A DNA stretch of 64,000 bases from Magnetococcales bacterium (GTDB taxonomy: Bacteria; Pseudomonadota; Magnetococcia; Magnetococcales; Magnetaquicoccaceae): contig PDZU01000001.1 in assembly GCA_002753095.1 (NCBI GenBank), forward strand, positions 1 through 64,000, in the 5' to 3' direction. The position numbers and the translations under genes are program-made. Within the stretch, counting starts at the first letter, position 1. Every line of letters starts with the position of its first letter. Positions 19 through 60,043 of the stretch are shown one piece after another. The notes below the pieces were generated by a model, which was given only the letters and a program-made list of their open reading frames with translations, searched no databases and was not told the origin of the DNA.

Positions 19-245
19 GCGGGGTCCAGGGGCGATCATCACCCCTGGCGGGTGCAGGGCTTAAGCCCTGCTTGCAATGTGCGGCGTTTTCAAGAAGCAA
101 ATGCGCAGCATTTGCGCACGCCGCACAGATTTGTGCCCCGCAGGGGCACGCTTCTGGAGGGCGGATGCCCGACTTTTAACATCGCGTGCCATAAAGGTTT
201 TTTTGCTGTCGAATGGGTGTTCGTTATTCGGTTGACGCTTCTGGA
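19..245 (+). repeat. Modular hairpin repeat element copy A-fwd (modules M1a-M1b-M2-M3-M4 plus M7 tail)
   Basis: M1a CCAGGGG..CCCCTGG 26-48; M1b GCAGGGCTTAAGCCCTGC 54-71; M2 TGCGGCG..GCAAATGC-GCA-GCATTTGC..CGCCGCA 80-125; M3 GTGCCCC-GCA-GGGGCAC 133-149; M4 GGGCGGATGCCC 159-170; tail 178-240 shared with copy F. Confidence 0.9.
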
Positions 246-360
246 GCGGAGCCCTGCTTGTCATGTGCGGTGCCCCATGGTTCCGCCCTGGATCCGTCAG
301 AGGGGCAGGGCGATCACATTTGAACTTTTCCTGTCACGTTTCCCATGCGGCACGGTGCAT

Positions 361-512
361 GTCGGGCTTCCGCCCTCCCAAAGCGTGCCCCTGCGGGGCA
401 CAGATCTGGCGCGCTGCGCAGATTTGGCTGCGCCAAATCTGCTTCGGTGAAAGCGCGCCATTTCAGCAGGGCGCTGCCCTGCACCCGCAAGGGGAGATAA
501 TCTCCCCTTGAC
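361..512 (-). repeat. Modular hairpin repeat element copy A-rev (inverted relative to A-fwd)
   Basis: M3 385-401; M2 with outer stem TGGCGCGC/GCGCGCCA 407-460 and inner GCAGATTTGGC-TGC-GCCAAATCTGC 418-442; M1b 466-482; M1a CAAGGGGAGATAATCTCCCCTTG 488-510. Confidence 0.9.
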
Positions 513-596
513 CCCATGCCACTTTTCAATGCAATTGCCAGGGCCAGGGGAGGGGATGTCCCCCTTGGATCCGCAACTGTTTTGGGGTCGACACGG

Positions 597-2807
597 TTAC
601 GTCAACAAATGGGGCAGAATCTGTTCACTGGCCAGCGCAGGCAAAGCAGCCACAGCCAGAGCCTCTTCCACACTGGTGACACGTCGCATTCCCACCAAAG
701 CCGTACCAATCTCTGGCAAACTGTAGGCAGCCCGCAGAGCCACTGTGCGTTCCGATAAACCCGCCGCCATGGTCCGAAACTGCGCGGGTATCGTACCACC
801 TTGCAGAACCGTGGCACTGGTAAAGGCATGCATGCCCAACTCTTTGATGGCGTGTAACGCCGACAACATCGTGCCATTAAGTCTCTGGGTCGGACGGGTC
901 AGACTGTGATGGTCACGGACATTGAAAGGCAATTGTACGGCACACAAATGGTGCTGCTTGCCTTGTACGATGGCTGCTGCTTCTTGGGCGGCACTGACGG
1001 CCCGTTGCAGCGAAAGATGGTTGCTCGCACCCTCCTCAACCCGCAAACCATGCCAAGTCGCTAGTCCATAGCAGACGATCTTGCCAGCCATCACCGCCTT
1101 TTCCAACTCCACAAAACTCTCTCGCAGGCGGGTATAGAACAGCTCCTGACCCAAATGGGGCAGCTCATCCTCTGGATTATGCAGATAATAAACATCCAAA
1201 GTCGCCAGCCCAAGATTGCTCAAAGTGTGTTCAAGCTGCTGAGCAATAAATGGCGGCTTGATGCTGTGGCGGCGCTGCAACTCGGCGTCGTCAATCAGCC
1301 CGCTATCCAGATACTGCTCACGCAGATAGCGCTCTGCCGCACGGTTGTCATCGGCATCATGGGTGATGTATCCCCCCTTGCTGGTGATGCAGAGCGCCTG
1401 CCGGGGAATACCCTGAGCACTCAGACAACGCACCGCGTTGCCGACACAGCGCTCTGCCTTCATGTGGCGATAGTTGATGGCGGTATCAAAAACATTGATG
1501 CCTCGGCTGGCCGCATGCAACATGGCATCGATGTAACGCTGATCGGTGGCGGCAGTCAGATCTCCCATCCAGGTGCCGAGCCCGATACCGCTCACCTTGC
1601 CAGCCTGGAACGGCCTATAAAAGCTCTCCAGTGCGGTGGATCCCTGTTGCTGTGGACGGGTGGCCCGCGTCTGCCAATGGCCGCTCTCTGGATTGCTCAG
1701 AAAGCCGGTAATCGGTGTTGTGGCCACGGGTGTGGTACTACGGGCCGGGGCGACGACTCCGGCCTGCGGTGCTGCCAAAAGGGCGCGCTGTTGCTTGTGG
1801 CGCTGGATGTGGCGCGCCAAGGCAACCTCCTGGATGCGGGTGTGATACCAGGTGCGCATGTCTGGCCGCGCGTTGGCCTCCAGCAACAGTGACAACCATT
1901 TTTCAGCGGGAGTCGGTTGCCAGCCAGTGGCTTTTAGCTTGCTGTTGTCCGGCAAAGTCCAACCCGCTCCTGTACCGAAAATGGGCGAATAGTCCAGACC
2001 AGCCTGCTCCAGCACTTCGTTGGGCACATGGACGATCTCTGGATCGCTTTTGGCGGCTGTGGCCAGCGCGCGTACCAACCGTTCATTGGTCCAGATTTCA
2101 TCACCGGTTACGTTGTAGACCTGATTGACGGCGTCGGGGTGGGTCAGGATATGGGTGGCAGCCCGTGCCAGATCGCTGACCAGTACCAGCTTGAAGAGCA
2201 CCTCATCCCGGCTGCACAGCAGAATGGGACCGCCATCCAACACACGCGAAACCCAGAAATGGCTGCGGCCAGACTCTTCGAACCAGTGCAGACGCCGAGG
2301 CGAAGGGGCACCAGTCAGGTTATCCCTGGGACCACTGACCATGCAGGGGCGCAAGACGCTCCACGCGACCTCGGAAGCCCGCAACACCGCTTCGCAAGAG
2401 CGTTTGCCGTAGTTGTAGAGGTCCGCGCCGCTCAAGCCGGTCAGATCGTAGCGACGAATTTCCACCTGATCTTCGCGATAAGCCCGTGGGTGGCGATTGG
2501 AATAGACATCCGTGGTGCTGGTCAGCAGATAGCGACCAATCCGCCCTGGTAAGGCAGCCAGCAGGCGCTCCACCTGATGTGGTTCATAGGCGATATTGTC
2601 CACCACATAGTCAAACGATTCAGAGGCAAAAAGGGTTTTAAGCGCCGCTTCCTGGTTGCGGTCTGCCTGCAGCCAGCGGATATGCGGACGGATCTCGGCG
2701 GGTGGAGAGTCCAGTGCCAAAACGGTCAGACGATGGCCAGCATGCAGCAGATGCCAAAGTATTTCGACGCCAACAAAGCGGTTGCCGCCCAGCAGAAGGG
2801 TATTCAT
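597..2807 (-). CDS. Fusion protein: N-terminal NAD-dependent epimerase-like SDR + C-terminal aldo/keto reductase
   Basis: N-term TLLLGGNRFVG Rossmann motif and YNYGK; C-term AKR with DTAINYR, SKGG, YLHNP (D/Y/K/H tetrad candidates). Confidence 0.85.
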   Translation of the reverse strand: MNTLLLGGNRFVGVEILWHLLHAGHRLTVLALDSPPAEIRPHIRWLQADRNQEAALKTLFASESFDYVVDNIAYEPHQVERLLAALPGRIGRYLLTSTTDVYSNRHPRAYREDQVEIRRYDLTGLSGADLYNYGKRSCEAVLRASEVAWSVLRPCMVSGPRDNLTGAPSPRRLHWFEESGRSHFWVSRVLDGGPILLCSRDEVLFKLVLVSDLARAATHILTHPDAVNQVYNVTGDEIWTNERLVRALATAAKSDPEIVHVPNEVLEQAGLDYSPIFGTGAGWTLPDNSKLKATGWQPTPAEKWLSLLLEANARPDMRTWYHTRIQEVALARHIQRHKQQRALLAAPQAGVVAPARSTTPVATTPITGFLSNPESGHWQTRATRPQQQGSTALESFYRPFQAGKVSGIGLGTWMGDLTAATDQRYIDAMLHAASRGINVFDTAINYRHMKAERCVGNAVRCLSAQGIPRQALCITSKGGYITHDADDNRAAERYLREQYLDSGLIDDAELQRRHSIKPPFIAQQLEHTLSNLGLATLDVYYLHNPEDELPHLGQELFYTRLRESFVELEKAVMAGKIVCYGLATWHGLRVEEGASNHLSLQRAVSAAQEAAAIVQGKQHHLCAVQLPFNVRDHHSLTRPTQRLNGTMLSALHAIKELGMHAFTSATVLQGGTIPAQFRTMAAGLSERTVALRAAYSLPEIGTALVGMRRVTSVEEALAVAALPALASEQILPHLLT

Positions 2808-4795
2808 CGATCAGCCTCCAGATAGGGTAGCGCAAAGGGGGAAGGCAACAAGGCGTCCCAAAACAGATCCAACGCAATGGCCGGACCCAGACGTGCTTCC
2901 AGGTTGCGGAACTTTTGCCACTGTTGCAAGCGTTCGACAGCGCTGCTCAAAATGGCATGATTGGCGGCAACCGCAGAAAATTCATGCCAATGGATGCCAT
3001 GCGGAATGCCGGGGGGGCGTCGTCGTACCATGAGGTCGCCGCCGATGGCCAACGCCTGGGCGATGGACCAGGAGACATCGGCACACCCGGTAAAATCGAT
3101 GGCCAGCGTGGGCGCAGGCAGTTCGCCAGCCCGTCGTCTGGCCAACAGTGGGGCAACGGCCTGCACTGGAAATTCCGGGTGTTCGGCGGCGCGACGGTCC
3201 ACATGCACCACCGGACGACCGGCATCCTGGACCAGCCACGCCGCCAAAGCCGCTTCCACCGTGCGACCGGCAATCCAGACAGGCGATTGATCCTTGCCCA
3301 GACGGTGTTCCAGACCAGCAATCAGGCTGCCCAGCGGATCGGCCAGCAGGGCGATTTTGCCCAAAGAGGGAGGTACGGTCACCAGATGGGAGAGGGGTGT
3401 GGAACAGATGCCCCAGCCATAGCCATCGGTACCGATTCCCAAAACAGCCCGTGTGCCACTCCGGCAAAAAGGGCACGTACTGGCCTCTGCGCAGGGCATG
3501 ACACTCATGGGCACCGCCAAGGTGCCCGCTTCAATGGCATGTGGACCAGGGTTGACCACCTCCAACAGGGCGTTATGACCAAAAACCCGGGGCCCTTGTT
3601 GCGGATATTCACCGCGCAAAAAACGCTCTTCTGCCGGCAACAAGGTCAACGCCTGGACTTTGACCACTGGGGGGGGGAAATTTTGTATCTGTGCCAACCG
3701 TTCCAAAGCCAGTCCGGCAGGTTGGCCCGCCCAGCCACGCAATACCCACTGCCGGGTTGTATGTTGCGGCAGAGGGTGCGCGGCGCGGCCAGGATGGTAG
3801 AACACTTCGTTTTCAGCTTCGCTGAGGGCGCGACGTTCACGGTTGACTAGGTTTTGATTGTAGGGACGGCGCTGTGCTGCGCACTCTCTGGCCCGGTTGT
3901 GTACCGTTTGCAGCGGATCATCCGCTTGCCAGCCCAGTTGCAGCAACAGGTGGGCTGGTTCGATAAAGCTGGTGGAGGCCCGTTCCCCCAAGGGGAGCTG
4001 CAAATTGGCGGCTCGCCAACGCCACTGCGACAGATAGCCAAAGCGCAGTGGTAGTCCCAGGGCATCCCGTACCATGGCGGCATGTCCCCAATAGGTCAAC
4101 GTCGCCTGATTGGCCACGTTGAGTGTTTGCCCGAAAGCATCTGGATACCCAGCCACCGTCCGCACCGCCCGCACCAGGTCCGCGTGCGAGAGATGGCGAT
4201 AATTGGGGAGATCCCCCTCCGGAAAGACCACGACTCCCCCATCCAGGATACGATCAACGAACCAGCGCGTTACATCCATCTGGCCGGTCTCCTCCCCTTC
4301 GAGGATGGCCGGGCGCAGAATGGTAAAGGCGAAACGATCCCGCGCCAACAGGCGCAACTCCCGCTCCACGGACCGGGCAGCCAACGTCTCTTCTGGCAGA
4401 TTGACCGGGAGATCGTAGGCAACCTCCGCATCGCTCTCCTGCCAGGGTCGCAACGTGGCACTGCCAGGGTAGACCTGGTGGGTGGAGATGAGCAGATATT
4501 GCTCCATTGCACCACTCAAAGCCGATACCGAGGCACGCAACTGGCTGACACTGCGGGAGCCATTATCGATGATCAATTGGTAGGAGGATGCTTCCCCAGG
4601 GGCGACCACTTCATACCCGGCATCGCTTAGGGCCTGCTCCATAAGGGTACGAAAAGTGTCTGGGTTGCCGATGTAACATGCCCGCCGTTTGCCGATGGAG
4701 CGGGTTTTATTGACCTTGCCGCGCAACGTGATTGACTCCGCATCTGAAAGATTAAATGATGGGTAACGGCCCTTGCGAAACGTGAATTTTTCCAT
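2804..4795 (-). CDS. Fusion protein: N-terminal SDR/epimerase-like + C-terminal medium-chain (glucose-dehydrogenase-like) dehydrogenase
   Basis: SDR-like N-half (LLISTHQVYPG, LRPAILEGEETG); C-half with VFGHNALLEVVNPG and CAEASTCPFCRSGT; 4-nt overlap with the next gene. Confidence 0.7.
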   Translation of the reverse strand: MEKFTFRKGRYPSFNLSDAESITLRGKVNKTRSIGKRRACYIGNPDTFRTLMEQALSDAGYEVVAPGEASSYQLIIDNGSRSVSQLRASVSALSGAMEQYLLISTHQVYPGSATLRPWQESDAEVAYDLPVNLPEETLAARSVERELRLLARDRFAFTILRPAILEGEETGQMDVTRWFVDRILDGGVVVFPEGDLPNYRHLSHADLVRAVRTVAGYPDAFGQTLNVANQATLTYWGHAAMVRDALGLPLRFGYLSQWRWRAANLQLPLGERASTSFIEPAHLLLQLGWQADDPLQTVHNRARECAAQRRPYNQNLVNRERRALSEAENEVFYHPGRAAHPLPQHTTRQWVLRGWAGQPAGLALERLAQIQNFPPPVVKVQALTLLPAEERFLRGEYPQQGPRVFGHNALLEVVNPGPHAIEAGTLAVPMSVMPCAEASTCPFCRSGTRAVLGIGTDGYGWGICSTPLSHLVTVPPSLGKIALLADPLGSLIAGLEHRLGKDQSPVWIAGRTVEAALAAWLVQDAGRPVVHVDRRAAEHPEFPVQAVAPLLARRRAGELPAPTLAIDFTGCADVSWSIAQALAIGGDLMVRRRPPGIPHGIHWHEFSAVAANHAILSSAVERLQQWQKFRNLEARLGPAIALDLFWDALLPSPFALPYLEADR

Positions 4796-5190
4796 ATTCC
4801 TGCTGCAGTATTTCCGAGAATTTGCACCCAGTCAATGGCTCTCTGCGTGGGGTTTTTGCCAAACCGCAGGATTTTGACAAAAGGATAATTTGTGTAAAAT
4901 ATTGTGCTAACGTGAGATAAACTCCTTTTCAAACCATATAAAAACCTGCTATGAACAGAGTCTGGGATCATTCCGGTGTTGTCCATGGATTATGGTGTTG
5001 TTTTTCGGGGGGAACTCTGCAATGTAGACCTCTTCCTGGGGGACGCATTGGGTACACCTTGATCAACGGCGTGGGAGAGCCGTCCTCCAACTGGAGGAGG
5101 GTATGGGGGTCACCCCACGCTGTTGGGTGGTATGGTCGAATTTTGGATTGTTATAATTGTTGTCAACCCCTAAAATGAGGAAGAAGCGCA

Positions 5191-5937
5191 ATGAGTGGAA
5201 GAGTTGCCTTGGTTACGGGTGGTGCAGGTGGTATTGGCACGGAGATTTGCAAAAAATTGATCAGCGAAGGGTATCGGGTGGTGGTCACCTGTGCGCCCGT
5301 TTTTGAATGTCCCAATCTGGACGAGTGGAAAAAACAGCGCGAGGCAGAGGGCAACCCGATTCCGGTTTATGAGGCCAATGTGGCTGATTTTACCTCCTGC
5401 AAAAACGCCGTAGAGCAGATCGAAAAAGAGGTCGGCCCCATCGACATTCTGGTCAATGCTGCCGGTATTACCCGCGACTCTACCCTGAAAAAGATGACCG
5501 AACAGCAGTGGAATGATGTGATTGATACCAATTTGAACAGCGTATTCAATGTGACCAAGCATGTCTTTACCGGCATGACCGATCGGGGTTATGGCCGCAT
5601 TGTCAACATCTCCTCTGTCAATGGTCGCAAAGGTCAGTTTGGGCAGGCCAACTATTCGGCTGCCAAGGCGGGTATGCATGGTTTCACCATGGCCGTTGCC
5701 CAAGAGGGTGTGGCCAAGGGTGTGACTGTCAACACCATTTCGCCCGGTTATATCGGTACAGATATGGTTAAAAAGATTCCGGAAGATGTGCTCAAGAAGA
5801 TCATCGCCCAAATTCCCGCCGGTCGCCTGGGGCGCCCGGATGAGATTGCTCGGGTGGTTGCCTTCCTGGTCCATGAGGATGCCGGTTTCATCACAGGTGC
5901 CAACATTGACATCAACGGCGGTCAGTTCATCCACTGA
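5191..5937 (+). CDS. phaB: Acetoacetyl-CoA reductase (PhaB-type SDR)
   Basis: VALVTGGAGGIGTEIC, NAAGITRD, YSAAKAGMHGFTMA; PHA gene context. Confidence 0.93.
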   Translation: MSGRVALVTGGAGGIGTEICKKLISEGYRVVVTCAPVFECPNLDEWKKQREAEGNPIPVYEANVADFTSCKNAVEQIEKEVGPIDILVNAAGITRDSTLKKMTEQQWNDVIDTNLNSVFNVTKHVFTGMTDRGYGRIVNISSVNGRKGQFGQANYSAAKAGMHGFTMAVAQEGVAKGVTVNTISPGYIGTDMVKKIPEDVLKKIIAQIPAGRLGRPDEIARVVAFLVHEDAGFITGANIDINGGQFIH

Positions 5938-5972
5938 TTCTAAACCGTTGAGGACTGTTTGAGGCAGTTCAC

Positions 5973-6413
5973 ATGAGAGTCATTCGCAAATATCCCAATC
6001 GTCGTTTGTACGATACGGAACGGTCCGCTTACGTTACCCTGGAGGGAATCCGGCAGTTGGTGTTGGACAAAATTCCATTCCAGGTGGTCGATAAGCAGAC
6101 CAACGAAGATATTACTCGCAGCATTTTGTTGCAGATCATCAGTGAATCAGAAGGAGGGGGGGTTCCGGTCTTTTCGACCGAGGTGTTGCAGCAAATCATC
6201 CGTTTTTATGGCGGAGCGTTGCAAGGCATGCTGGGTGAGTATCTGGCGCGCAGCGTGGCTCTCTTTGTCGAACAGCAAAACCAGTTGCACACCGCCATTA
6301 ATCCGGTGTCCATTCTGAGTGAAATGACCCAGAAGAATATTGAATTCTGGGTCTCTTTGCTGCCCATCACCCGCACTTCGTCCAGCACACCCCCGCCGGA
6401 CGAGTCGTCGTGA
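5973..6413 (+). CDS. phaR: Polyhydroxyalkanoate synthesis repressor PhaR
   Basis: MRVIRKYPNRRLYDTERSAYVTLEGIRQLV: PHB/PHA accumulation regulator DNA-binding domain. Confidence 0.93.
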   Translation: MRVIRKYPNRRLYDTERSAYVTLEGIRQLVLDKIPFQVVDKQTNEDITRSILLQIISESEGGGVPVFSTEVLQQIIRFYGGALQGMLGEYLARSVALFVEQQNQLHTAINPVSILSEMTQKNIEFWVSLLPITRTSSSTPPPDESS

Positions 6414-10398: not shown

Positions 10399-12060
10399 AT
10401 GGATCCATTTTTTCCCCCTGCGTTGCAGGCCCATGCGCGGCGGATGGCGGCGTGTGCGTTGCCGGCCTTGTTTGCGGCGGAGCCGAACCGTTTCGCGCGT
10501 TTTTCTGTCTCTTGTCATGACCTGTTATTGGACTATTCCAAGAATCGTCTGACAGAGGAGACGCTTGCTTTGCTTATTGACTGGGCCCATGCGGCTGGTT
10601 TGGAGCAGGCGCGTGCGGATCTTTTTTCTGGTGTGCGTTGCAACTGGACGGAGCAGCGGGCGGTATTGCATCCGGCTTTGCGTCATCTGGGTGGGCAGGC
10701 GGTCTATCTGGATGGTGTGGATGTCATGCCGGGGGTGCGGCAGCAGTTGGCCAGGGTCGAGCAATTTGCCACGCAGTTTCGGGCTGGGGAGATTCGGGCG
10801 GCGGATGGGCGACCGTTGCGTCATTTGGTCAACATTGGCATTGGTGGTTCCCATTTGGGGCCGGAGATGATCAGTCAGGCGTTGCAGCCTTATGGGCAGG
10901 ATGGGCCGGAGGTTCGTTTTGTCAGCAACATGGATGGTGCCGATTTTTTGGGGGCGGTGCAGGGGTTGCAGGCGGCGGAGACGCTATTTGTCTTGGCTTC
11001 CAAGACTTTTTCCACCCGTGAGACGTTGCTCAACACGGAAGCGGCTTTGCGTTGGTTGCGGGAGGGTGGTGTTGGTGTGTCTGCTTTGCCCCACCATCTG
11101 GTAGCGGTGACTGCTGCGCCGCAGCGGGCGCAGGCCTATGGGATTACCCCGGATCGTATTTTCACCATTTGGGACTGGGTGGGTGGGCGCTATTCCTGGT
11201 GTTCGGCGATTGGTTTGAGTATCGCGGTGCGGATTGGTTATGGCCATTTTGCCCAGATGCTTGCCGGGGCGCATGCCATGGATTGTCATTTTCAGAGTGC
11301 GCCGTTACCGGTCAACATGCCGGTGGTGCTGGCTTTGCTGGGTTTGTGGAGCCGTCTGTTGGAGGGGGCGGATACTTTGGCCATTTTGCCGTATGATCAT
11401 GCGTTGCGTCGTTTTCCCGCCTATTTGCAGCAGTGTGACATGGAGAGCAACGGCAAGCGGATTGATCGGGATGGTCAGGTGGTTGGGTATGGCACTGGTC
11501 CTGTTTTGTGGGGGGAGGTGGGCAGCAATGCGCAGCACTCTTTCTTCCAGTTGTTGCATCAGGGCACGCATGCGGTGGCCATCGATTTTATTGCCTGTGC
11601 CAACGGCCACACCTCTTTGCATGACCACCATCAGGAGTTGTTGGCCAACTTTTTGGCACAGAGCGAGGTGTTGATGCGTGGACGTTCGCCGGCTGAGGTG
11701 GAGGCGGATTTGCGTGCGGACGGTTTATCGGCGGAGGAGATTCTGCGGTTGCTCCCGCATCGGGTTTTTCCCGGCAATCGGCCCAGCAACACTGTATTGA
11801 TGCCTTGTTTGACTCCTTTCAACCTGGGCATGTTGATCGCCCTGTATGAAATGAAAATCTTTGTGCAAGGGGTGATGTGGCGGGTGAACAGTTTTGACCA
11901 GTGGGGTGTGGAGTTAGGCAAGAAGGCGGCGCAGCGTTTGTTGCAGGAGAGTCGTCGTTTGTTGGCTGGTGAGGTGGTTGATTTGGGGCATCATGACAGT
12001 TCGACGCAAGGGTTGTTGCGCCAGGTGATTGCCTGGCAGAAGGATCAGTCGAAAAACTAA
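10399..12060 (+). CDS. pgi: Glucose-6-phosphate isomerase
   Basis: NIGIGGSHLGPEM, WDWVGGRYSWCSAIGLS, FDQWGVELGK. Confidence 0.97.
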   Translation: MDPFFPPALQAHARRMAACALPALFAAEPNRFARFSVSCHDLLLDYSKNRLTEETLALLIDWAHAAGLEQARADLFSGVRCNWTEQRAVLHPALRHLGGQAVYLDGVDVMPGVRQQLARVEQFATQFRAGEIRAADGRPLRHLVNIGIGGSHLGPEMISQALQPYGQDGPEVRFVSNMDGADFLGAVQGLQAAETLFVLASKTFSTRETLLNTEAALRWLREGGVGVSALPHHLVAVTAAPQRAQAYGITPDRIFTIWDWVGGRYSWCSAIGLSIAVRIGYGHFAQMLAGAHAMDCHFQSAPLPVNMPVVLALLGLWSRLLEGADTLAILPYDHALRRFPAYLQQCDMESNGKRIDRDGQVVGYGTGPVLWGEVGSNAQHSFFQLLHQGTHAVAIDFIACANGHTSLHDHHQELLANFLAQSEVLMRGRSPAEVEADLRADGLSAEEILRLLPHRVFPGNRPSNTVLMPCLTPFNLGMLIALYEMKIFVQGVMWRVNSFDQWGVELGKKAAQRLLQESRRLLAGEVVDLGHHDSSTQGLLRQVIAWQKDQSKN

Positions 12061-12062
12061 AA

Positions 12063-12219
12063 TGGGGTCCAGGGGAGATTATCTCCCCTGGCGGGTTGTC
12101 AGGGCGGAGCCCTGACGTTTGGCGCGCTTTTACCGAAGCAGATTTGGCGCAGCCAAATCTGTACCGCGCGCCACAATCTGTGCCCCGCAGGGGCACGCTT
12201 TGGGAGGGCGGAGCCCGAC
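12063..12219 (+). repeat. Modular hairpin repeat element copy B
   Basis: M1a 12069-12091; M1b TCAGGGCGGAGCCCTGA 12099-12115; M2 12121-12172; M3 12180-12196; M4 12206-12216. Confidence 0.92.
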
Positions 12220-12330
12220 ACGCCCCGTGTTGTTTTGTGTGACGTTGCAGAAAAAATTTAAGCAAGTCGTTGCGATCAAATCAGGTTATCTGCTTGACAG
12301 AAGATCCTCTTCCTCCTATACTCCCCCTCT

Positions 12331-13769: not shown

Positions 13770-13802
13770 TGTTTCAGTGCTCTTTTCAGTCTTTTATACG
13801 AT

Positions 13803-14185
13803 TGCGGGGTGCAGGGGCGGTCACCGCCCCTGCTGGGTGCAGGGCAAAGCCCTGCGTGTAATGTGCGGCGTTTTACAGAAGCAAATGCGCAGCATTTGCG
13901 CACGCCGCACAAATCTGTGCCCCGCAGGGGCACTCTTTGGGAGGGCGGACGCCCGACTTTTAACCTCGCGGTAAAAACCCATTGGGAGGGTGTTTGAATT
14001 GGCGCAGAAAAGCGCGCCAATCCAAACACCTTGCGTCAATTAGGCGCTTAAGCCGACGCAAAAACCGCGTCGGCTTGTTGTGAAAGGCGCGCCAAAAGCA
14101 AAAGATTAAAAGCAAAAGATAAATTCCCAGGACTCCGTCCTGGACCTGCCAGGGGGCTCAGCCCCCTGGACCCATAAAAATTTGA
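13803..14185 (+). repeat. Modular hairpin repeat element copy C (long form with M5/M6 hairpins)
   Basis: M1a 13811-13833; M1b 13839-13855; M2 13864-13909; M3 13917-13933; M4 13943-13954; M5 stems 13989-14030 and 14050-14076; M6 CCAGGACTCCGTCCTGG and CCAGGGGGCTCAGCCCCCTGG. Confidence 0.92.
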
Positions 14186-19254: not shown

Positions 19255-19286
19255 TGCGGGTGCCAGTGATACGGAGGATAGCCACA

Positions 19287-19442
19287 TGGGGTCAAGGGGA
19301 GATTATCTCCCCTTGCGGGTTGCAAGGGCAGAGCCCTTGCTTCTGGTGCGCGTTCACCAAAGCAGATTTGCGCAGCAAATTTGCGCCGCGCACCACACTC
19401 TGTGCCCCGCAGGGGCACGCTTTGGGAGGGCGGATGCCCGAC
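19287..19442 (+). repeat. Modular hairpin repeat element copy D (between tamA and tamB)
   Basis: M1a CAAGGGGAGATTATCTCCCCTTG 19293-19315; M1b 19322-19340; M2 19345-19394; M3 19402-19418; M4 19428-19439. Confidence 0.92.
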
Positions 19443-19536
19443 ACGCACCTTGTCGCCTGGATAACGATGCGGAAAAACACCACCACAGCCCTGTCATACC
19501 CCGTCACTGCCACCCTGACTGTTGCGGGCTACCCCG

Positions 19537-25385: not shown

Positions 25386-26174
25386 TTAGCGGGCCAACAG
25401 GCCACGTACCCGTTCGGCGTCGGCGGGGGTATCGACCCCGATAGCTGCCTGATCGGTGACGATCACCCGAATGGTATATCCCTCTTCCAAGACCCGTAGC
25501 TGCTCCAGGCGTTCGCGCTGTTCCAGGATGGTTGGGGGCAGGGTGGCCAATTTTTGCAAAAAAGAGGCACGATAGGCGTAGAGCCCCAGATGGCGCAGTA
25601 GGGGGTGGTGGGTGGTATCCCGATCAAAGGGGATAGGGGAGCGGGAAAAATAGAGGGCGTTGCCTTGCCGGTTGCAGACCACTTTGACGACGTTGGGGTC
25701 GTTGGCTTCGTTTTGATCGTAGATGGGATGGGCTGCTGTGGCCATGACCAGGGTAGGATCCTGACACAAGGGTTCTGCTACCCGATTGATCAACTGCGGG
25801 TCAAGTAGTGGTTCATCTCCCTGCACATTGACGATGATTTCGGCCTTCAGGGAGCGGGCTACTTCTGCCACCCGATCGGTTCCCGATGGATGGTTGGTGG
25901 CGGTCATCATGACCTGTCCACCAAAGGAGTGTACTGCTGCATGGATACGCGCATCGTCTGTTGCCACCCATACGGAGGAGACCTGTGCCTGCATGGCCCG
26001 TTCGTACACATGGCGAATCATCGGTTTGCCCGCCAGATCCAGCAGTGGTTTACCAGGCAAGCGGCTGGAGCCATAACGGGCCGGGATGATGACGGCGATG
26101 GTGGGTTGGGCAGAAGCAGGCAATCGAGAAGCTCCCCGTGACGGAAAGGCGTTATCGTAGCGATACCAAAACAA
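25386..26174 (-). CDS. kdsB: 3-deoxy-manno-octulosonate cytidylyltransferase (true start probably about 70 nt downstream)
   Basis: IIPARYGSSRLPGKPLLDLAGKPMIRHVYERA; NVQGDEPLL. Confidence 0.95.
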   Translation of the reverse strand: MFWYRYDNAFPSRGASRLPASAQPTIAVIIPARYGSSRLPGKPLLDLAGKPMIRHVYERAMQAQVSSVWVATDDARIHAAVHSFGGQVMMTATNHPSGTDRVAEVARSLKAEIIVNVQGDEPLLDPQLINRVAEPLCQDPTLVMATAAHPIYDQNEANDPNVVKVVCNRQGNALYFSRSPIPFDRDTTHHPLLRHLGLYAYRASFLQKLATLPPTILEQRERLEQLRVLEEGYTIRVIVTDQAAIGVDTPADAERVRGLLAR

Positions 26175-26575
26175 TTGCGGGTCCAGGGGGCTGGCCCCCT
26201 GGCAGGTCCAGGACGGAGTCCTGGGATTTTATCTTTTGCTTTTAATCTTTTGCCTTTGGCGCGCTTTTCACAGTAAGCCGACGCGGTTTTTGCGTCGGCT
26301 TAAGCGCCTAATTGACGCATGCTGTGCGCATTGGCGCGCTTTTCTGCGCCAATGCGCACAGCCTCCCAATGGGTTTTGTCGCCCGCAGGTAGCTCAATAC
26401 CGCGCGGTTAAAAGTCGGGCGTCCGCCCTCCCAAAGAGTGCCCCTGCGGGGCACAGATTTGGGCGCGCTGCGCAGATTTGCTGCGCAAATCTGCTTCGGT
26501 AAAAGCGCGCCATTACACGCAGGGCTCCGCCCTGCACCCGGCAGGGGCGGTGACCGCCCCTGCACCCCGCAATAA
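26174..26575 (-). repeat. Modular hairpin repeat element copy E (long form, inverted relative to C)
   Basis: M6 26183-26224; M5 26275-26301 and 26321-26362; M3 26438-26454; M1a GCAGGGGCGGTGACCGCCCCTGC 26541-26563. Confidence 0.92.
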
Positions 26576-26609
26576 TTTAAAAGATTTAAAAGATTGAAAA
26601 GATCAAAAT

Positions 26610-38071: not shown

Positions 38072-38083
38072 TCCTTTAAATTA

Positions 38084-38250
38084 TTGCGGGGTGCAGGGGC
38101 GGTCACCGCCCCTGCCGGGTTGCAAGGGCGGAGCCCTTGCGTGTAATGGCGCGCTTTTACCGAGGAAGGGCGGACGCCCGACTTCTAACATCGCGTGCCA
38201 TAACGGCTTTTTTGCTGTCGAATGGGTGTTCGTTGTTCGGTTAACGCTTA
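38084..38250 (+). repeat. Modular hairpin repeat element copy F (M2 right half and M3 deleted; M7 tail present)
   Basis: M1a 38093-38115; M1b 38122-38140; truncated M2 left arm about 38149-38163; M4; tail 38187-38249 matches 178-240 at 59/63 positions. Confidence 0.9.
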
Positions 38251-38254
38251 TGCC

Positions 38255-39154
38255 TCAGGGTTGCTGCATGGCGGCCAGCAACAACCGTACATTGTGACGA
38301 AACATCTGCTCATAGGTCGCCGCAGGTCCACCTGTCTCGGACAAAGACTCCACATAGAGTGTTCCCCCCAACTGGGCCCCAGTCTCTTTGGCAATCTGCG
38401 TCAATAGACGCTTGTCGCCACTGTTCTCCAAGAAATAGAGGCGGATTTTCTCCTGACGAATCTGTTTCATCAGGTTGGCCACCCCTTTGGCGGTCGCCTC
38501 CGCATCGCTGGAGATCCCCAAGGGAGCCAGAAAACGTACCCCATAGGCGTCAGCAAAATAGCCCAGAGATTCATGACTGGTGAGAATTTTACGCTTTTCC
38601 AAGGCGATGGCAGCAACCTGCTGCCGGGTCTCCTCATGCAACCCCTGCAGCGCAGTCAGCAAACGCTCTCCCCGACTCTGGTAAAAAGCCGCATGGTCTG
38701 GATCCACCTCCTGCAACGCGTGCATTATGTTGCGCACATAGATCATGCCGTTGGCGGCGCTGTTCCAGGCATGCGGATCGGGAACCGTCTGCCCTTCCTC
38801 CTCCATGTTGCGTACCGCAACCCCTGTACTGGCCACCACCTGCCGCCCGCGAAAACCAGAGGCAGCAATCAAACGCTGCAACCACCCCTCCAGATGCAGC
38901 CCGTTGACCACCACCACGGCAGCCTGCTGCAAACGTTTGACATCCTCCGGGGCCGGTTCGTATTGATGCACATCGCTGTTGTTCCCTACCAGAGTGGTCA
39001 CCTGCACCTGCTCACCCCCCACCTGTTGCACCATGTCCCCCAATACAGAAAAGGTGGCCACCACCGACACCGGATCGGCCCAAGCCGCTGTCAACCCAAC
39101 ACACCATAATCCGATCGCCAAAAACACTCTCTTGCTCCAGACGCTCTGCTTCAT
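38255..39154 (-). CDS. znuA: Metal (Zn) ABC transporter substrate-binding protein
   Basis: VVATFSVLGDMVQQVGGEQVQVTTLVGNNSDVHQYEPAPEDVKRL, DPHAWNS, TSHESLGYFADAYG. Confidence 0.9.
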   Translation of the reverse strand: MKQSVWSKRVFLAIGLWCVGLTAAWADPVSVVATFSVLGDMVQQVGGEQVQVTTLVGNNSDVHQYEPAPEDVKRLQQAAVVVVNGLHLEGWLQRLIAASGFRGRQVVASTGVAVRNMEEEGQTVPDPHAWNSAANGMIYVRNIMHALQEVDPDHAAFYQSRGERLLTALQGLHEETRQQVAAIALEKRKILTSHESLGYFADAYGVRFLAPLGISSDAEATAKGVANLMKQIRQEKIRLYFLENSGDKRLLTQIAKETGAQLGGTLYVESLSETGGPAATYEQMFRHNVRLLLAAMQQP

Positions 39155-41657: not shown

Positions 41658-41689
41658 AATAATATCAATATGATACATTATAAGTAGTG

Positions 41690-41735
41690 TTTTGCCCTGC
41701 ACCCAGCAGGGGCGGTGACCGCCCCTGCACCCCGC
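41690..41735 (-). repeat. Modular hairpin repeat copy G (M1a plus partial M1b)
   Basis: GCAGGGGCGGTGACCGCCCCTGC 41704-41726 followed by ACCCCGC. Confidence 0.85.
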
Positions 41736-41750
41736 AGTAATAAAAATATT

Positions 41751-53037: not shown

Positions 53038-53080
53038 ATTGCGGGGTGCAGGGGCGATGACCGCCCCTGCACCCCGCAGA
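53038..53080 (+). repeat. Modular hairpin repeat copy H (M1a only)
   Basis: 16-bp arms: GCGGGGTGCAGGGGCG / CGCCCCTGCACCCCGC, 53041-53077. Confidence 0.88.
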
Positions 53081-53140: not shown

Positions 53141-54061
53141 ATGGCACTGCCATTCAGTCATGACAGGCACGACCACCACGATTCTTTGGGAGCAGTTGCT
53201 GGCATGGAGGAGAAGGAAAAAGACGCATCCATTCATCGTGGACATCGGGAACGATTGCGGCGGCGTTTTCTGCAAGAGGGTCTGGAACAGTTTGAGGATC
53301 ATCAGGTATTAGAATTATTATTATTCAATGCCTTGCCGCGCCAGGATACCAACCGGATTGCCCACCTGCTGCTGCAGCGTTTTGGCTGTTTGTCGGCAGT
53401 GCTGGAGGCGGATGCGCGGGATTTGGCCTTGGTGCCTGGCATGGGCAGCGCGGCGGCGGCTTTTTTGACCTTGATCCCAGCGCTGACACGGCGTTATCTG
53501 CACGACAATGCCACGCGGGAAAAGATGCCTCTGAATGATCCCTATCGCACCAGTCGATTTCTGGTGCCGTTGATGGCGGGTCGTTCGGAGGAGGTATTTT
53601 ATGCCCTCTGTCTGGACAACCGCTGCCAACTGCTTTTTCCGGCCTTGATCACCCGTGGCACGGTTACCGATGCCCTGATCCACCCTCGCCAAGTGGTGGA
53701 GACCATCTTGCGCCATAAATCGGTCAACGTGATCCTGGCGCACAACCATCCCTCTGGTGTGCTGCAGGCTTCCCAAAGCGATGTTAACCTGACCTTGTTA
53801 TTGCAGCGCGTCCTGTTGCCCATGGGCATTCGTCTGGTGGACCATGTCATCGTAGCGGGGGAAAAGACCCTGAGTATGGCCAGCGTGGGTTTTTTGGGAG
53901 AACAACGCAGCGGAGAGCCCGGTTTTATGCGGGCCAGCGAGGTGCGAGAGGAGGATTGGTCGGAGGTGGTCTATTCACCGCACTGGCCACCGGAAGCCAT
54001 AGAGGCAGCCAGTGCGGCGCATAGCAGGGAGTTGCAAGAGGAGAAAAACGAATCCGCTTAG
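53141..54061 (+). CDS. radC: RadC/JAB (MPN) domain protein
   Basis: HRERLRRRFLQEG, LILAHNHPSGVLQASQSDVNLT, DHVIVAGEKTLSMA. Confidence 0.92.
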   Translation: MALPFSHDRHDHHDSLGAVAGMEEKEKDASIHRGHRERLRRRFLQEGLEQFEDHQVLELLLFNALPRQDTNRIAHLLLQRFGCLSAVLEADARDLALVPGMGSAAAAFLTLIPALTRRYLHDNATREKMPLNDPYRTSRFLVPLMAGRSEEVFYALCLDNRCQLLFPALITRGTVTDALIHPRQVVETILRHKSVNVILAHNHPSGVLQASQSDVNLTLLLQRVLLPMGIRLVDHVIVAGEKTLSMASVGFLGEQRSGEPGFMRASEVREEDWSEVVYSPHWPPEAIEAASAAHSRELQEEKNESA

Positions 54062-55608
54062 CAGGGTGGCACTGCGCTGACTTTTTTGCAAACCGGACGC
54101 AGAGGAGCCTTTTTGTCGCCGGAGCAGACCATGGTCCAAGCGTTCTGCAGGTCACCCGCTTTGGGTTGGTACAAAGGCACCTCGTAGCTGGCCGTTACCT
54201 CTTTGCCCTCCACAGCCAGTTGGATGCGCATGAAACCAAAGTGAATCGAATGCAGGGCCACAGCGTCATCCTTGTTTTGCCAGGCGCAACGGTCGCCGGT
54301 TGTGCCGGAGAGAGCTACGCCCCCATTGCCGACAATCATCTGCACCGGTTCCTTCTTGTCTAGCTGCACCACTTGAAATTGATGCAGATGGGCCGAGGCA
54401 ATCATGGCCACTTTATCGAGCTCCTTTTTGACGTCGGAGTTGTGCAGGGCTTTGTAAAAGTGGGAATCTGTGTCCAGCTTACCCTTTTTGGTCATTTCGT
54501 GGGCGGGGATGTGCTGGAAGAACCAAGCCGGTTCATCCTTAGACAAGTCGTGCAACCACCGTTTGGCGACCGTGTTGTACTGCGTTTTGTAGAGATCTTC
54601 AGTCGCCTTTGGGTCCAGGTCGCGTCCATCTGCCGTGCGTACCATATCCAGCATCACCAAACGGGCCGACTGTTTGCTGGCGACCGGTTTATCCACGGTA
54701 CCACCAAAGGCCACCGCATCGAAGGCAAAAGGGGTGAGAACGTCACGATCCTTGACGGCTACCTCCTGGCAGCTATCCGCTCCATCGCCAAAGAAGTAGA
54801 GCCACCCTTCTGCCCGATCTGCCCAGTCGGTATTATTCCATTCACTTTTTTTGATAAAACACCCCTCATGGTTGCCACGCAGAATGACCGACCAACTTTG
54901 TTGCATCAGCGGGGCGTAGGGCTGAAAAAACTCCTCTTTCCAGCCTAACTTGCCCGATGTGCTCTCCCAGGAGTCGGCAACGGCACTTTTTTGACCCGAG
55001 TAGCGCATGTCCCCCATGTGAACCCATAACGGCGGCAAACGGTTTGCTGTGCCGGCAGCGGCCACTTGATTCATGGCGGTCAGCAGCCAGGGCAGGGTCG
55101 TGGATTTTACTTGACCGCCTGCGGGGGGGGTGTTGGCACAATATTGTGAATTGTCATCGCGGCAGCCGGTGCAGCCAGAGGTGACCACCTGACTCAACGG
55201 TAGACCTCCCTCGTGCAGATTGGGCAGACGAATCGGTGTCGAACTTTTGTCGCTCGTCAGATAGCCGACATGCCATTCTTTCAATAATTTATCATCTGCG
55301 GCGATATTTTTCTCGCACACCTTGATCTGGTTGAAGAGGGTTCCGCTGGCCACGGTGCCCTTTTTGGCGCGCTCCGTCAGGGTGAAGAGGGGTTTTGCGG
55401 CATCATCAAACAGGGTTGGGCAGGCATCCTGCGCTGCCACGATGGCCCGCACGGAAACGTTTGGCAACCACTGTTTACCCACCTGTTTGCCCGGTTGCAG
55501 TTGCACCCAGTGATAGTGCACGGTGGCCATGGAGTCCAATGGCACCATCAGGACAGAAAAAAGGGAAAGAGGGAGTAAAAAACGACCCGTGTGCAGTATT
55601 TTAGCCAT
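54058..55608 (-). CDS. Secreted calcineurin-like metallophosphoesterase, Cys-rich
   Basis: Signal peptide; WVHMGDMRYSG, ILRGNHEGC, IASAHLHQFQ; CTGCRDDNSQYC. Confidence 0.75.
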   Translation of the reverse strand: MAKILHTGRFLLPLSLFSVLMVPLDSMATVHYHWVQLQPGKQVGKQWLPNVSVRAIVAAQDACPTLFDDAAKPLFTLTERAKKGTVASGTLFNQIKVCEKNIAADDKLLKEWHVGYLTSDKSSTPIRLPNLHEGGLPLSQVVTSGCTGCRDDNSQYCANTPPAGGQVKSTTLPWLLTAMNQVAAAGTANRLPPLWVHMGDMRYSGQKSAVADSWESTSGKLGWKEEFFQPYAPLMQQSWSVILRGNHEGCFIKKSEWNNTDWADRAEGWLYFFGDGADSCQEVAVKDRDVLTPFAFDAVAFGGTVDKPVASKQSARLVMLDMVRTADGRDLDPKATEDLYKTQYNTVAKRWLHDLSKDEPAWFFQHIPAHEMTKKGKLDTDSHFYKALHNSDVKKELDKVAMIASAHLHQFQVVQLDKKEPVQMIVGNGGVALSGTTGDRCAWQNKDDAVALHSIHFGFMRIQLAVEGKEVTASYEVPLYQPKAGDLQNAWTMVCSGDKKAPLRPVCKKVSAVPPC

Positions 55609-55647
55609 AGCCAGACCTCGCGTGTTAGATTGAAGTTATTGCAAACA

Positions 55648-56208
55648 TCAATTTATAGTATAGTTGCTACCGTTGGATCCGTAAAGTGTTTCCATGTCTG
55701 TCACAACTTTTCCTATTGGCGAGAGAATCAGGTTGAGATCCCAATCGGCTTTGGCAACGGCATCTGTGATGAGTTTACAGAATGAATGTAATAGTTTAGG
55801 GTCCATGGCAACCTCGATACCATAGCTGGTTTGCGGGTGCAGACCGATCAGATAGCCGCTCTGTTCGCGTGGTTCGATGCGGGCGCGGGTGACCAGTACC
55901 GGGAGTGGTCCCAGTGGCGTTTCCGAGACCTCTTCCTGGAAGCGGGTGGCAAAATCGCTTTCCGAAACCGCTTGTTGATGGACAAAGCTCAAGACAGCGG
56001 CTCGATTGCTTGGATCCACTGGAGCGGTTGTTTCTGTTTGTACCTGGCTTTCCATGGCTTGGCGTAACCCTGGCCATAAACGTTTGATAAAACGACGTGT
56101 TAGCCAAAATCGAAATTCCGCGCGTCCATGCGTGTTGATACGGAGTTGCAGGCGATCTTCCTCTGCAGAAAACAAGACCTGGATTTGGTGAATACGATGT
56201 GCGCTCAT
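55648..56208 (-). CDS. Hypothetical protein
   Basis: 186-aa ORF with no strong motif recognised. Confidence 0.6.
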   Translation of the reverse strand: MSAHRIHQIQVLFSAEEDRLQLRINTHGRAEFRFWLTRRFIKRLWPGLRQAMESQVQTETTAPVDPSNRAAVLSFVHQQAVSESDFATRFQEEVSETPLGPLPVLVTRARIEPREQSGYLIGLHPQTSYGIEVAMDPKLLHSFCKLITDAVAKADWDLNLILSPIGKVVTDMETLYGSNGSNYTIN

Positions 56209-56678
56209 GCGTGCAGGCTCGCTATGGGTGGAGAGAACGGTGGATTAATGGATGTCAGTATACGATCCACGCCCCTTTTCCCGCAACCATTCTTGGCCGG
56301 AAAAGTCAACAAAAGCCAATTGATTGATCGATTATTGTCAGACATCCTGACCGTAAGCTGGTGCGGAAAAGTGGGAAAAATGCGCGCAACCGTAAAAAAG
56401 AGTTGAAATGATTGTCAATGCTCCGTAAAATAGTGGGTCATTACCGCAGTGGGATCTTTCGTTTCGTGGTGTATGTTCGGGGATCTGGGCGTTGCTTTGC
56501 CCGTCTTATCCCGATCCTGATCGGGACACCTGTTTAGAACACCAATCGTACCGGATGTGAAGAACGGTCCAATGTTTGCGTAGACGGTCGGCAGCCAGTT
56601 GTCCATGTCATTCGGGTGACACAATCGCTGCGTGGTCTTGCGGCATTCCAGTTGTTTCGCCTGCATAAAGGGGGGGCC

Positions 56679-56828
56679 ATGAAACAATCTATTGGTGTGG
56701 CGATCGTTTTTGCTTTCGCCATGTCTCTTGTGGCAAATATCGCTTCAGCCGCCGATGCACCCAAAAAGGTGGATTGCAAGAGTGACAAGAAGTGTGAAGA
56801 ACTCCAGAAGGCCGCTACCAAAAAGTAG
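56679..56828 (+). CDS. Small secreted basic protein (49 aa)
   Basis: MKQSIGVAIVFAFAMSLVANIASAADAPKKVDCKSDKKCEELQKAATKK: signal peptide plus short basic mature region; GGGGG SD-like upstream. Confidence 0.6.
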   Translation: MKQSIGVAIVFAFAMSLVANIASAADAPKKVDCKSDKKCEELQKAATKK

Positions 56829-56997
56829 TCGTGCTGTTTGGCGGGTCGGGTCAACGGCGAACGCTGGCCAGTTGCGCATGCCAAACAAAGAGCTTGACCG
56901 CTGACAACGGCAAGGTTGATCGTAACACAATGCAGTTCCAGGACAGGCTTGACCTCATTTAACACATTGAAGCTCTTGAATTTAAGGAAAGCGTAAG

Positions 56998-57195
56998 ATG
57001 CAAAATTTCAAACGGATGTCGGGTGTGATCGCCATGTTGGTTGCCATGGGTCTGTGGGCCGCTACGCCGGTTCAAGCCGCTGATGTGGGTGGTGGCATGC
57101 AGACGATGGAAAAACAGCACAATACTGGCAAAAAGCATGGCAAGAAGGCCAAGAAGGCCAAGAAGAAGAAAAAGGCCGCTGCTGCTGCCATGTAA
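56998..57195 (+). CDS. Small secreted Lys/Ala-rich protein (65 aa)
   Basis: Signal peptide ...PVQAADVGGG followed by KKHGKKAKKAKKKKKAAAAAM; terminator downstream. Confidence 0.65.
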   Translation: MQNFKRMSGVIAMLVAMGLWAATPVQAADVGGGMQTMEKQHNTGKKHGKKAKKAKKKKKAAAAAM

Positions 57196-57236
57196 TTTCG
57201 GTAGTCGACGGCGCTGTTGGCGCTGGCTGCAAGAAA

Positions 57237-57274
57237 AATGGGTGAGATGGGTGACCATCTCGCTCATTTTTTTT
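57237..57274 (+). terminator. Rho-independent terminator
   Basis: AATGGGTGAGATGG-GTGA-CCATCTCGCTCATTTTTTTT. Confidence 0.85.
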
Positions 57275-57283
57275 GGGTGTTGT

Positions 57284-57988
57284 TCATGACAGCACCAAGC
57301 GATAGCCTACGCCGGATTCGGTCAAGATGTGGTGTGGCACATTGGGATTTTGTTCCAGTTTGCGGCGCAGGTTGGACATATAGACCCGCAGGTAGTGGGT
57401 ATTGTCGCTTTGGTTGGGGCCCCAGACATCGCGCAGCAGGGTACGGTGGGTGAGTACCCGACCGGCGTTGGCGACCAGTTGTGCCAGCAGGCGGTACTCG
57501 ATAGCGGTCAGGTGGACGGTTTTTCCCGCGCGGTTGACTTGGCGTTGGGCCAAATTGACTTCCACTGTGCCAAAACGGATGATGGGTGATTCTTCGCCGT
57601 GTTGCCGTAGCGAGCGCCGCAACAGGGCGCGCACGCGTGCCAGTAGTTCTGGAATGCCGAAGGGTTTGGTCAGATAGTCGTCGGCACCGGCATCCAGTGC
57701 TGCGACTTTGTCGTTTTCATCGACGCGGGCGGAGAGGATCAAGACGGGCAGTTGTGACCAAGTGCGCAGATCGCGCACCAGGTCGGTACCGTTGCAATCG
57801 GGCAGGCCCAGGTCCACGATGACCAGATCGGGGCGACGGGTAGCCACATCGATCAGGCCGCGTGCGCCGGTTTCGGCCTCTACGACGGCATATTGTTCTG
57901 CTTCCAGGGCGGTACGCACAAAACGGCGAATGTGTGGTTCATCTTCGATGATGATAATGGTGGTTTGAGTTGGTGCGCCTTCGTTCAC
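57284..57988 (-). CDS. kdpE: KdpE-like response regulator (GTG start overlapping the kdpD stop)
   Basis: IIIEDEPHIRRFVRTALEAEQY, LGLPDCNGTDLVRDLR, C-term winged helix. Confidence 0.92.
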   Translation of the reverse strand: MNEGAPTQTTIIIIEDEPHIRRFVRTALEAEQYAVVEAETGARGLIDVATRRPDLVIVDLGLPDCNGTDLVRDLRTWSQLPVLILSARVDENDKVAALDAGADDYLTKPFGIPELLARVRALLRRSLRQHGEESPIIRFGTVEVNLAQRQVNRAGKTVHLTAIEYRLLAQLVANAGRVLTHRTLLRDVWGPNQSDNTHYLRVYMSNLRRKLEQNPNVPHHILTESGVGYRLVLS

Positions 57989-59949
57989 TCTTGTTCCTCT
58001 GGAATGGCTGGTGGTTCTCCGGCGGGCAGGCGGATGGTGAAGCATGCGCCTCCTTCAGGCAGGGTATCGGCACTGACTTGGCCTTCATGGGCTTCGACGA
58101 TGGCGCGGACGATGGCCAATCCCAGGCCAAAACCGGCGTTACTGGATTCTGTTTTGCCGCGTGTAAATTTGTCAAAGATTTTTTCTTCCATGCCGCTTGG
58201 CAGTCCGGGGCCATTGTCGGACAGGGTGATGGTGACAGTATTTTCGGCATGGTGAGCGGCGAGGTGAAGGGTGGTACCGGGTGGGGTATGTTTGGCGCCG
58301 TTTTCCAGCAGATTGTTGAAGACCCGTTCCATTAGGACGCTATCCAGTTCCAGCAGGGGCAGGTCGATGGGCAGATCGATGATCACTGTGTGGCGGGCCA
58401 GGGCGGCTGCGCAGTCGCCCATGGAGACACCGATCACCTCTTCCAGGGTTTGCCAGTGGCGGTTCGGGATAAAGTTGCCCATTTGCATACGGGCCATATC
58501 CAGGAGATTGTTGGCCATGGTGACGGTTCGGGCTGCTTCTTCGCGGATGGCCATGGCCAGACTGGCGTGGGGTTCTTGCAGGGAGGGTTTGGCCAGGGTA
58601 AGGGCTTCGCTCAGGCCGGTGATGATGGTCATTGGGGTACGCAGATCGTGGGAGATGGCGGAGAGCAGTGAGTTGCGCAGGCGTTCGGAGGCGATGGAGA
58701 GTTGGGTTTGTTGTGACAACTCCACATAATGAAACCGTTCCAGGGCGATGGCGATCAGGGAGGCGCTGGTTTCCAGGAGTTGTTTTTGTTCCAGGGGAAT
58801 TTCCCAGAGGGGTACTTGTGGTTGCACCACCAGCACGCCACACATGCGGGTTGGGGCTTTGAGTGGAATAAAGAGCAGGTGGGATGCGGCGAAGCTTTCC
58901 ATATCCCAGCTGCCTTGTTCGCCCAGGGTGAAGCAGCGTTGTGCTGCTTCCAGGTGATCGTCGCGCAGGGTAACCAATGGGGTAAGTGGTTGCAGTTGGT
59001 TGTGTGCATCTGGGATCAGCAGGGAGATGGTTGCCTGGAAGCCTTGGTGCATGAACTGTTGGCAGATAGGCACCATTTGTTCGCTGTTGATGGCGCTGGA
59101 GAGGTGGCGTGCCATCTCGTACAGGGCGCGCATGTGGGCTTCGCGTTGGCTAGCGATGGAGGCTTGCCATTGCAGCGAGGCGGTCAGTTGTCCCACCACC
59201 AGGGCCACCATGAGCATGATGGCGAAGGTGACCAGATGTTGGCCATCTTGTACGACGAAGGTGAAGAAGGGGGGGACGAAAAAAAAATCGAAGGCGCCTA
59301 CGGAGAGAAAGGCGGCCAGCAGTGCTGCGCCACGGCCCAGGCGGATGGCGCTGAGTACCACTGCCAGCAGGTAGATCATCACCAAGTTGGCCAGATCCAG
59401 GTGTTGTTGGAACGGGGCGATGCATGCGGTGATCATGGCCACCACGAGCGTGGCCAATCCGTAGGCGTGCCAGCGGTTGTCGCTGGGCTGCCAGAGGGTG
59501 ATCAGGCGGGAGAGCAGGCTGAAGGAGCTTTCCGTGCTTCTGGCCAGTTGCAGCAGTTCCAGATCGGGGGCTTGGCGGGCGATGCGTTCTGCGAAGCCGT
59601 GTTGCCAGGGCAGGCGTTGGTAGCGATCGCGTCCCAGCAGCAGGGTTCCCAGGTGGTGTTGGCGGGCGTACTCGATGGCGACGACGACGGCATTCTGTCC
59701 GAACAGGTTAGCGGTTTGGGCGCCCATTTGTCGGGCGGTTGCCAGTGACTGTTGCACGCGGGAGCGTACTTGTTCTGGCAGCCATTGGCTGGCTGGGGTA
59801 TCGATGGCGATGGCGTGCCAAGGGGCGCCGGTTTGGCTGGCGCGGCGGGATGCGCGTTCGATTAACCGGGCGCTGTCTGGACCGGGTCCGATGCAGACCA
59901 GGACTGCCTCACGGGGTTGCCAATTGTTGCCTGTGGGGGCGTGATTCAT
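57985..59949 (-). CDS. kdpD: KdpD-like sensor kinase lacking the N-terminal KdpD (Walker) domain
   Basis: Starts at the USP-like domain (AVLVCIGPGPDSARLI), then DUF4118 TMs, GAF, HisKA (SHDLRTPMT), HATPase (GFGLGLAI). Confidence 0.88.
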   Translation of the reverse strand: MNHAPTGNNWQPREAVLVCIGPGPDSARLIERASRRASQTGAPWHAIAIDTPASQWLPEQVRSRVQQSLATARQMGAQTANLFGQNAVVVAIEYARQHHLGTLLLGRDRYQRLPWQHGFAERIARQAPDLELLQLARSTESSFSLLSRLITLWQPSDNRWHAYGLATLVVAMITACIAPFQQHLDLANLVMIYLLAVVLSAIRLGRGAALLAAFLSVGAFDFFFVPPFFTFVVQDGQHLVTFAIMLMVALVVGQLTASLQWQASIASQREAHMRALYEMARHLSSAINSEQMVPICQQFMHQGFQATISLLIPDAHNQLQPLTPLVTLRDDHLEAAQRCFTLGEQGSWDMESFAASHLLFIPLKAPTRMCGVLVVQPQVPLWEIPLEQKQLLETSASLIAIALERFHYVELSQQTQLSIASERLRNSLLSAISHDLRTPMTIITGLSEALTLAKPSLQEPHASLAMAIREEAARTVTMANNLLDMARMQMGNFIPNRHWQTLEEVIGVSMGDCAAALARHTVIIDLPIDLPLLELDSVLMERVFNNLLENGAKHTPPGTTLHLAAHHAENTVTITLSDNGPGLPSGMEEKIFDKFTRGKTESSNAGFGLGLAIVRAIVEAHEGQVSADTLPEGGACFTIRLPAGEPPAIPEEQE

Positions 59950-59985
59950 GATTCACCTGCTTCATTATGTATGGCAATCATTTCT

Positions 59986-60043
59986 GCTGGGTGCATGGCT
60001 CCGCCCTGCACCCGCCAGGGGAGATAATCTCCCCTGGACCCCA
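59986..60043 (-). repeat. Modular hairpin repeat copy I (M1a plus decayed M1b)
   Basis: CCAGGGGAGATAATCTCCCCTGG 60015-60037; GTGCATGGCTCCGCCCTGCAC 59991-60011. Confidence 0.85.

Follow-up and report, generated by a model that had tools for sequence, protein, structure and literature searches.

Interspersed multi-hairpin repeats of magnetotactic cocci: a putative family of non-autonomous mosaic mobile elements

Repeats in the window

The window, by which we mean the whole stretch of DNA analysed, is the first 64 kb of a contig of 136,300 bases (C114) in a 3.58-Mb draft genome of the Magnetococcales, called the home genome here. Copies of a structured repeat lie in its intergenic gaps, among them those that follow pgi, a DUF3108 gene and kup (Table 1). 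The first-pass annotation had read them as an ordered series of palindromic modules, M1a-M1b-M2-M3-M4, and alignment of the copies bore this out. Its more general view, of a family built from several hairpin modules and located near the 3′ ends of genes, is also correct. The core from M1a to M4 measures about 160 nt, and no evident gene was seen inside the repeat.

The tails after M4 sort into types, called I, II and III. Those of copies C and E had been taken for further modules (M5/M6) of the same element. They are in fact a second, independent repeat, which is inverted and ends in its own M1. As for the other extensions, A-fwd and F carry a type II terminus, and A-rev, B and D carry one of type III that is often decayed. 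Copy H is an almost perfect palindrome and has no orientation. M1a had been described as starting roughly 10–90 nt past the stop codon; copy B starts within 1–2 nt of the pgi stop. Within the window no copy is found between divergent genes, as had also been said. The window itself is weak evidence for polarity (approximately 1 in 16), because the asymmetric copies that lie in same-strand gaps number only four, B, D, E and I.

Table 1. Copies of the repeat in the window, and TIR-complete copies with exact target duplications
Feature	Position	Strand	Description
A-fwd	18..245	+	M1 18-78, M2-M4 80-174, then type II tail
A-fwd tail	~229-242		degenerate terminus GTTGACGCTTCTGG; then right half of older M1b GCGGAGCCCTGC
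A-rev	297..519	-	M1 464-517, M2-M4 360-460, type III tail, degenerate terminus 308-324
B	12053..12290	+	directly after pgi stop (12060); M1 12061-12119, M2-M4 12120-12217, decayed type III tail
C	13793..14172	+	between convergent genes; M1 13803-13862, M2-M4 13864-13958
C extension	to 14172		inverted second repeat: hypervariable hairpin, M2′, M1′
D	19276..19460	+	after gene upstream of tamB; M1 19285-19342, M2-M4 19345-19443, decayed type III tail
E	26174..26585	-	after DUF3108 gene; M1 26512-26571, M2-M4 26413-26511
E extension			inverted second repeat: hypervariable hairpin 26312-26373, M1′ ending near 26174
F	38075..38255	+	M1 38085-38147, M2-M3 internally deleted, M4, type II tail
G	41677..41740	-	truncated, M1 only
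H	53038..53080		near-perfect palindrome, M1a and its mirror image; no orientation
I	59985..60054	-	M1a-M1b, truncated; after kup
L094			exact 10-bp duplication GCAGCGGCCC
L171			exact 10-bp duplication ACCATTGCCA
L181			exact 10-bp duplication ATAGGTCATC
L167			exact 10-bp duplication GAGATTCCCC
L180			exact 10-bp duplication CATTTCCAAT
L184			exact 10-bp duplication GTCTTTCTTG
L173			exact 10-bp duplication GGCATGCGTT
L262			exact 10-bp duplication ACCGGTTGAC

Copy number and range

Genomes were searched with two covariance models, R1 for M1 and R2 for M2-M3-M4. Both gave at least 150 matches in the home genome, 150 being the number of candidates scored; this is far more than chance would give, and the best E values of the genome-wide searches are 1e-23 and 1e-28. 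R1 (M1a-M1b) was matched in 30 of the 31 relatives searched, across the order. R2 reaches high copy number only within the genus, and there it is patchy: at least 65 matches in G001, at least 65 in G005 (UR-1), 16 in G004 and none in a search of G003. The same motif is present in Candidatus Magnetaquicoccus inordinatus UR-1 and in the metagenome-assembled genome WMHbinv6, both members of the Magnetococcales. In a relative with a complete 4.7-Mb genome (G027:C1), M1-like matches are arranged in tandem, repeating about every 350 nt, for example at 442931-443694 and 4328256-4329376. Draft contigs break at these repeats, which probably account for many of the assembly breaks in magnetotactic cocci.

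The proposed check against Rfam gave no family: no Rfam covariance model matched at gathering score in the 64-kb window, and the only hits, at copy E, were below threshold. There is no mention of these repeats in the UR-1 genome paper (PMC6783814) or in the wider literature searched. To the extent of that literature, these interspersed repeats of magnetotactic cocci form a family not described before.

Hairpin structure

Across four species (G000, G001, G004 and G005), 99.1% of the cells in 30 pairs are standard pairs. In the same genomes, 83 cells are changed on both sides of the pair against few on one side, a result seen in 0 of 500 shuffles. In the type I tail, the hypervariable hairpin has 98.6% of its cells paired, and 49 cells are changed on both sides as against a single one-sided change. 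At its positions in the window (26312-26373 and 13978-14039) and at other loci, the stem letters vary strongly and the flanks are nearly constant. Folding of whole copies gave z scores of −12.7 and −8.1. Pairing is thus maintained at 98–99% through extensive compensatory change, within and between species. Selection for pairing may act on RNA or on single-stranded DNA, and correction templated by the hairpin in DNA would likewise account for the scarcity of intermediates. As a measure of pairing in the sense RNA, G-U outnumbers A-C by a suggestive 45:14 cells; counted as distinct states the ratio is 21:11, which is not significant (p=0.11).

Ends, target duplications and empty sites

Type III copies carry CAGGGCAATCGCATTTGAA at both sides, are approximately 238 nt long and are flanked by 10-bp direct repeats. 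The terminal inverted repeat (TIR) of 19 nt is found at both ends in copies of the home genome and of UR-1. The 10-bp target duplication is exact in at least eight TIR-complete copies (Table 1) and is seen at many UR-1 sites. UR-1 has more than 200 matches to this TIR, and in G003 and G004 type III ends surround other hairpin cores. Two type III copies of G004 (L256, L274) appear to be interrupted, close to the ends of contigs, by a further transposase-like sequence that by eye resembles IS630.

Type II ends resemble CCCATAAGCGTTAAC / GTTAACGCTTATGGG, and type II copies sit inside M1b hairpins that belong to older copies; the duplications in the cases read are 8 bp with one mismatch. The type I tail, the inverted second repeat, also stands alone in dozens of copies in G005, and type I copies have inverted M1 heads at both ends. 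About 70% of the home-genome copies have no recognisable terminus. On the left, these terminus-less copies have a sharp common boundary at AAA, approximately 10 nt before M1a, with unrelated sequence beyond.

Several orthologous sites in relatives are empty. The locus of copy E is repeat-free in five relatives, site C is empty in G004, and site D is empty in G003–G006. G001 has its own sequence-diverged copy at site D, in the same orientation. At site B in G004 (L207), the pgi-GDT1 spacer is enlarged by unrelated, probably coding, DNA. The TIRs, the target duplications and the empty sites all support a mobile element, which the first-pass annotation had offered as an alternative. We regard the type III form as a well-supported mobile element that has the characters of a MITE. 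The terminus-less class cannot yet be placed among the MITEs, and its mobility is putative.

Candidate transposases

The sister genome G006 has a terminus, CAGGGCAATCGCATTTCAA, that differs from the type III TIR by one letter. At a distance of 27 nt from it is a transposase fragment (G006:C177:1-282; L283, L287) that scores 80 bits against the NCBIfam ISAs1 model NF033564 (cut-off 70). The repeat differs from ISAs1 insertion sequences in having no transposase itself. No intact ISAs1 element with type III ends was found, and the TIR is missing from the other ISAs1 fragments in the genus. Among the matches listed, no TIR pairs lie 1–2 kb apart as expected of an autonomous partner.

A classical REP/BIME mobilised by a RAYT (Y1 HUH) transposase would share the preference for 3′ ends known for REPs (PMC3733652), and M4 (GGGAG followed by GGGCGGACGCCC) resembles the GGAG-tagged REPs tabulated for Pseudomonas (PMC2817692). 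RAYT-like tyrosine transposases are indeed encoded in the home genome (L191, L192 and L193; G000:C135, C162). However, these loci are not flanked by the M modules, M4 occurs outside the full core in only 1 of 143 cases, and TIRs with 10-bp duplications are DDE-type features. We therefore consider this origin very unlikely, and for type III it is largely refuted. Two of the three loci carry a repeated GGACAGTATATC stretch upstream and have no M modules close by.

Orientation relative to genes

Orientation was scored in about 120 stretches around matches, with genes from a simple hexamer-based ORF caller that places gene starts approximately. The copies sampled are the best-scoring matches, and counts of related copies are not independent. 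With this in mind, 115 home-genome copies with both neighbours known lie head-first after a same-strand gene and 24 lie the opposite way (approximately 83%). The first-pass annotation had claimed strict polarity and proposed a genome-wide scan of orientation as its check; the outcome goes largely against it, for the bias is real but not strict. It is violated by 24 of the 139 oriented copies, divergent gaps included, and is absent in three relatives. In the home genome 57 copies lie in convergent and 9 in divergent gaps. In same-strand gaps the ratio is 55:15 (p=1.7e-6).

The bias depends on the ends. In the home genome, copies in which a 5′ transposon terminus can be recognised show no preferred orientation (9 same, 10 opposite), and those without one are 106:14 head-first (Fisher p=1.3e-4 between the two classes; 52:10 in same-strand gaps). 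UR-1 shows no polarity, with 9:7 in same-strand gaps and 6 copies in divergent gaps; its TIR-complete copies are 4:4, plus 4 divergent. The ratio in G001 is 5:5, also without polarity, and its copies (L379-L392) are tail-to-tail inverted dimers of the core, approximately 220 nt apart. G018 has M1 but lacks the R2 core; its ratio in same-strand gaps is 16:28, and an order-wide polarity of M1 is rejected on this ground. As these three relatives show no polarity, the "fixed polarity" is to be read as a local bias, not as a rule that defines the repeat. Since both terminus-bearing copies and these relatives are unoriented, polarity belongs to the terminus-less copies of the home genome and not to the family.

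The sense bias in same-strand gaps, with or without the terminus-bearing copies, would not be expected from a strand-symmetric role in DNA. Together with the strong structure (z −12.7) and the tight distance from stop to head (median 32 nt, similar across tail types and both gap types), it makes a putative co-transcribed 3′-UTR element possible. Strand-specific selection would then keep copies head-first about 32 nt past the stop, and mRNA 3′-end protection, Rho-linked termination and ribosome clearance are candidate roles. We hold this reading only tentatively: UR-1, G001 and G018 show no bias, the G-U excess is not significant in distinct states, and orthologous genes manage without the repeat.

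If each module were an intrinsic transcription terminator, the position just past stops would be explained, and many type I and II copies do have TTTT after M4. The M1 and M3 hairpins lack U-tracts, however, and a terminator detector placed U-tract terminators behind few of the genes that bear the element, about as often as behind genes without it. Such terminators are too few; the combination of GC hairpin and U-tract is missing from M1–M3 and weak for M4 in some copies. This explanation is highly improbable.

The head-first bias is confined to the terminus-less class, and this class has the common boundary at AAA. Both observations would fit a cassette (AAA to M4) that is an independent mobile unit, inserts at 3′ ends in a specific orientation and was later captured by MITE ends. 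No target duplication or enzyme has been identified for it, though, its right end is variable, and recombination with resident M1 heads predicts an identical picture. We think such a unit unlikely.

Proposed origin of the family

The repeats are best read as mosaic, non-autonomous and MITE/REP-like, and as forming a new family. We give a probability of roughly 0.7 to the view that these are genus-specific, non-coding, non-autonomous mobile repeats whose core is carried between end types and whose polarity is secondary. The family would be confined to one genus of the Magnetococcales, with an M1 head found order-wide. Its core of about 160 nt may be enclosed by transposon ends of at least two kinds (types II and III). 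Type III copies are probably moved in trans by a transposase, putatively of the ISAs1 family. Type II copies lie within older ones, in the M1b hairpin, and the core also occurs end-less, starting at the fixed AAA about 10 nt before M1a. New insertions presumably land in either orientation. The head-first bias near stops in the home genome would be secondary, because head-first copies were either retained, being harmless or useful as transcribed 3′-end hairpins, or resulted from recombination with M1 heads that were there before.

A more elaborate scenario is distinctly doubtful. There, a cassette with its own strand-specific, 3′-end-directed mobility or maintenance would have become a genome-wide transcribed 3′-UTR module in one species, with an unoriented MITE core in relatives and stems that change in pairs with almost no intermediates.

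A structured non-coding repeat can thus occur as an unoriented MITE that transposes and also as an oriented feature shared by more than 100 genes. Within a single genus, one core is found in an apparently recently active state (UR-1), a dimeric one (G001) and a polar one (home genome). The step from parasite to possible 3′-UTR part is therefore testable.

Comparison with known repeats

REP, BIME and REPIN sequences (GTAG, CGTC; PMC3733652, PMC3116915) are likewise palindromes near 3′ ends, mostly in convergent and same-strand gaps, with mosaic and dimeric forms. Their preference for gene 3′ ends and convergent gaps has been described (PMC3733652), and compensatory changes, seen here as well, are known from REPIN hairpins (PMC3116915). 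Unlike them, the present repeat has no linked RAYT, a core of about 160 nt instead of 20–40, an asymmetric module order, a strong head-first bias in one species and, in type III, 10-bp target duplications. M4 is no stand-alone tagged palindrome of 20–40 nt such as the GTAG and CGTC REPs.

Bacterial MITEs (for example MITEAba12 in Acinetobacter, PMC6382973; NEMIS; ERIC) are similar in being short, without an evident gene and of high copy number, and in their terminal inverted repeats, target duplication of fixed length and related IS termini. The repeat differs from them in carrying four to five ordered, independent hairpins between its ends, and in that a single core is combined with two or more different end types and is also found end-less.
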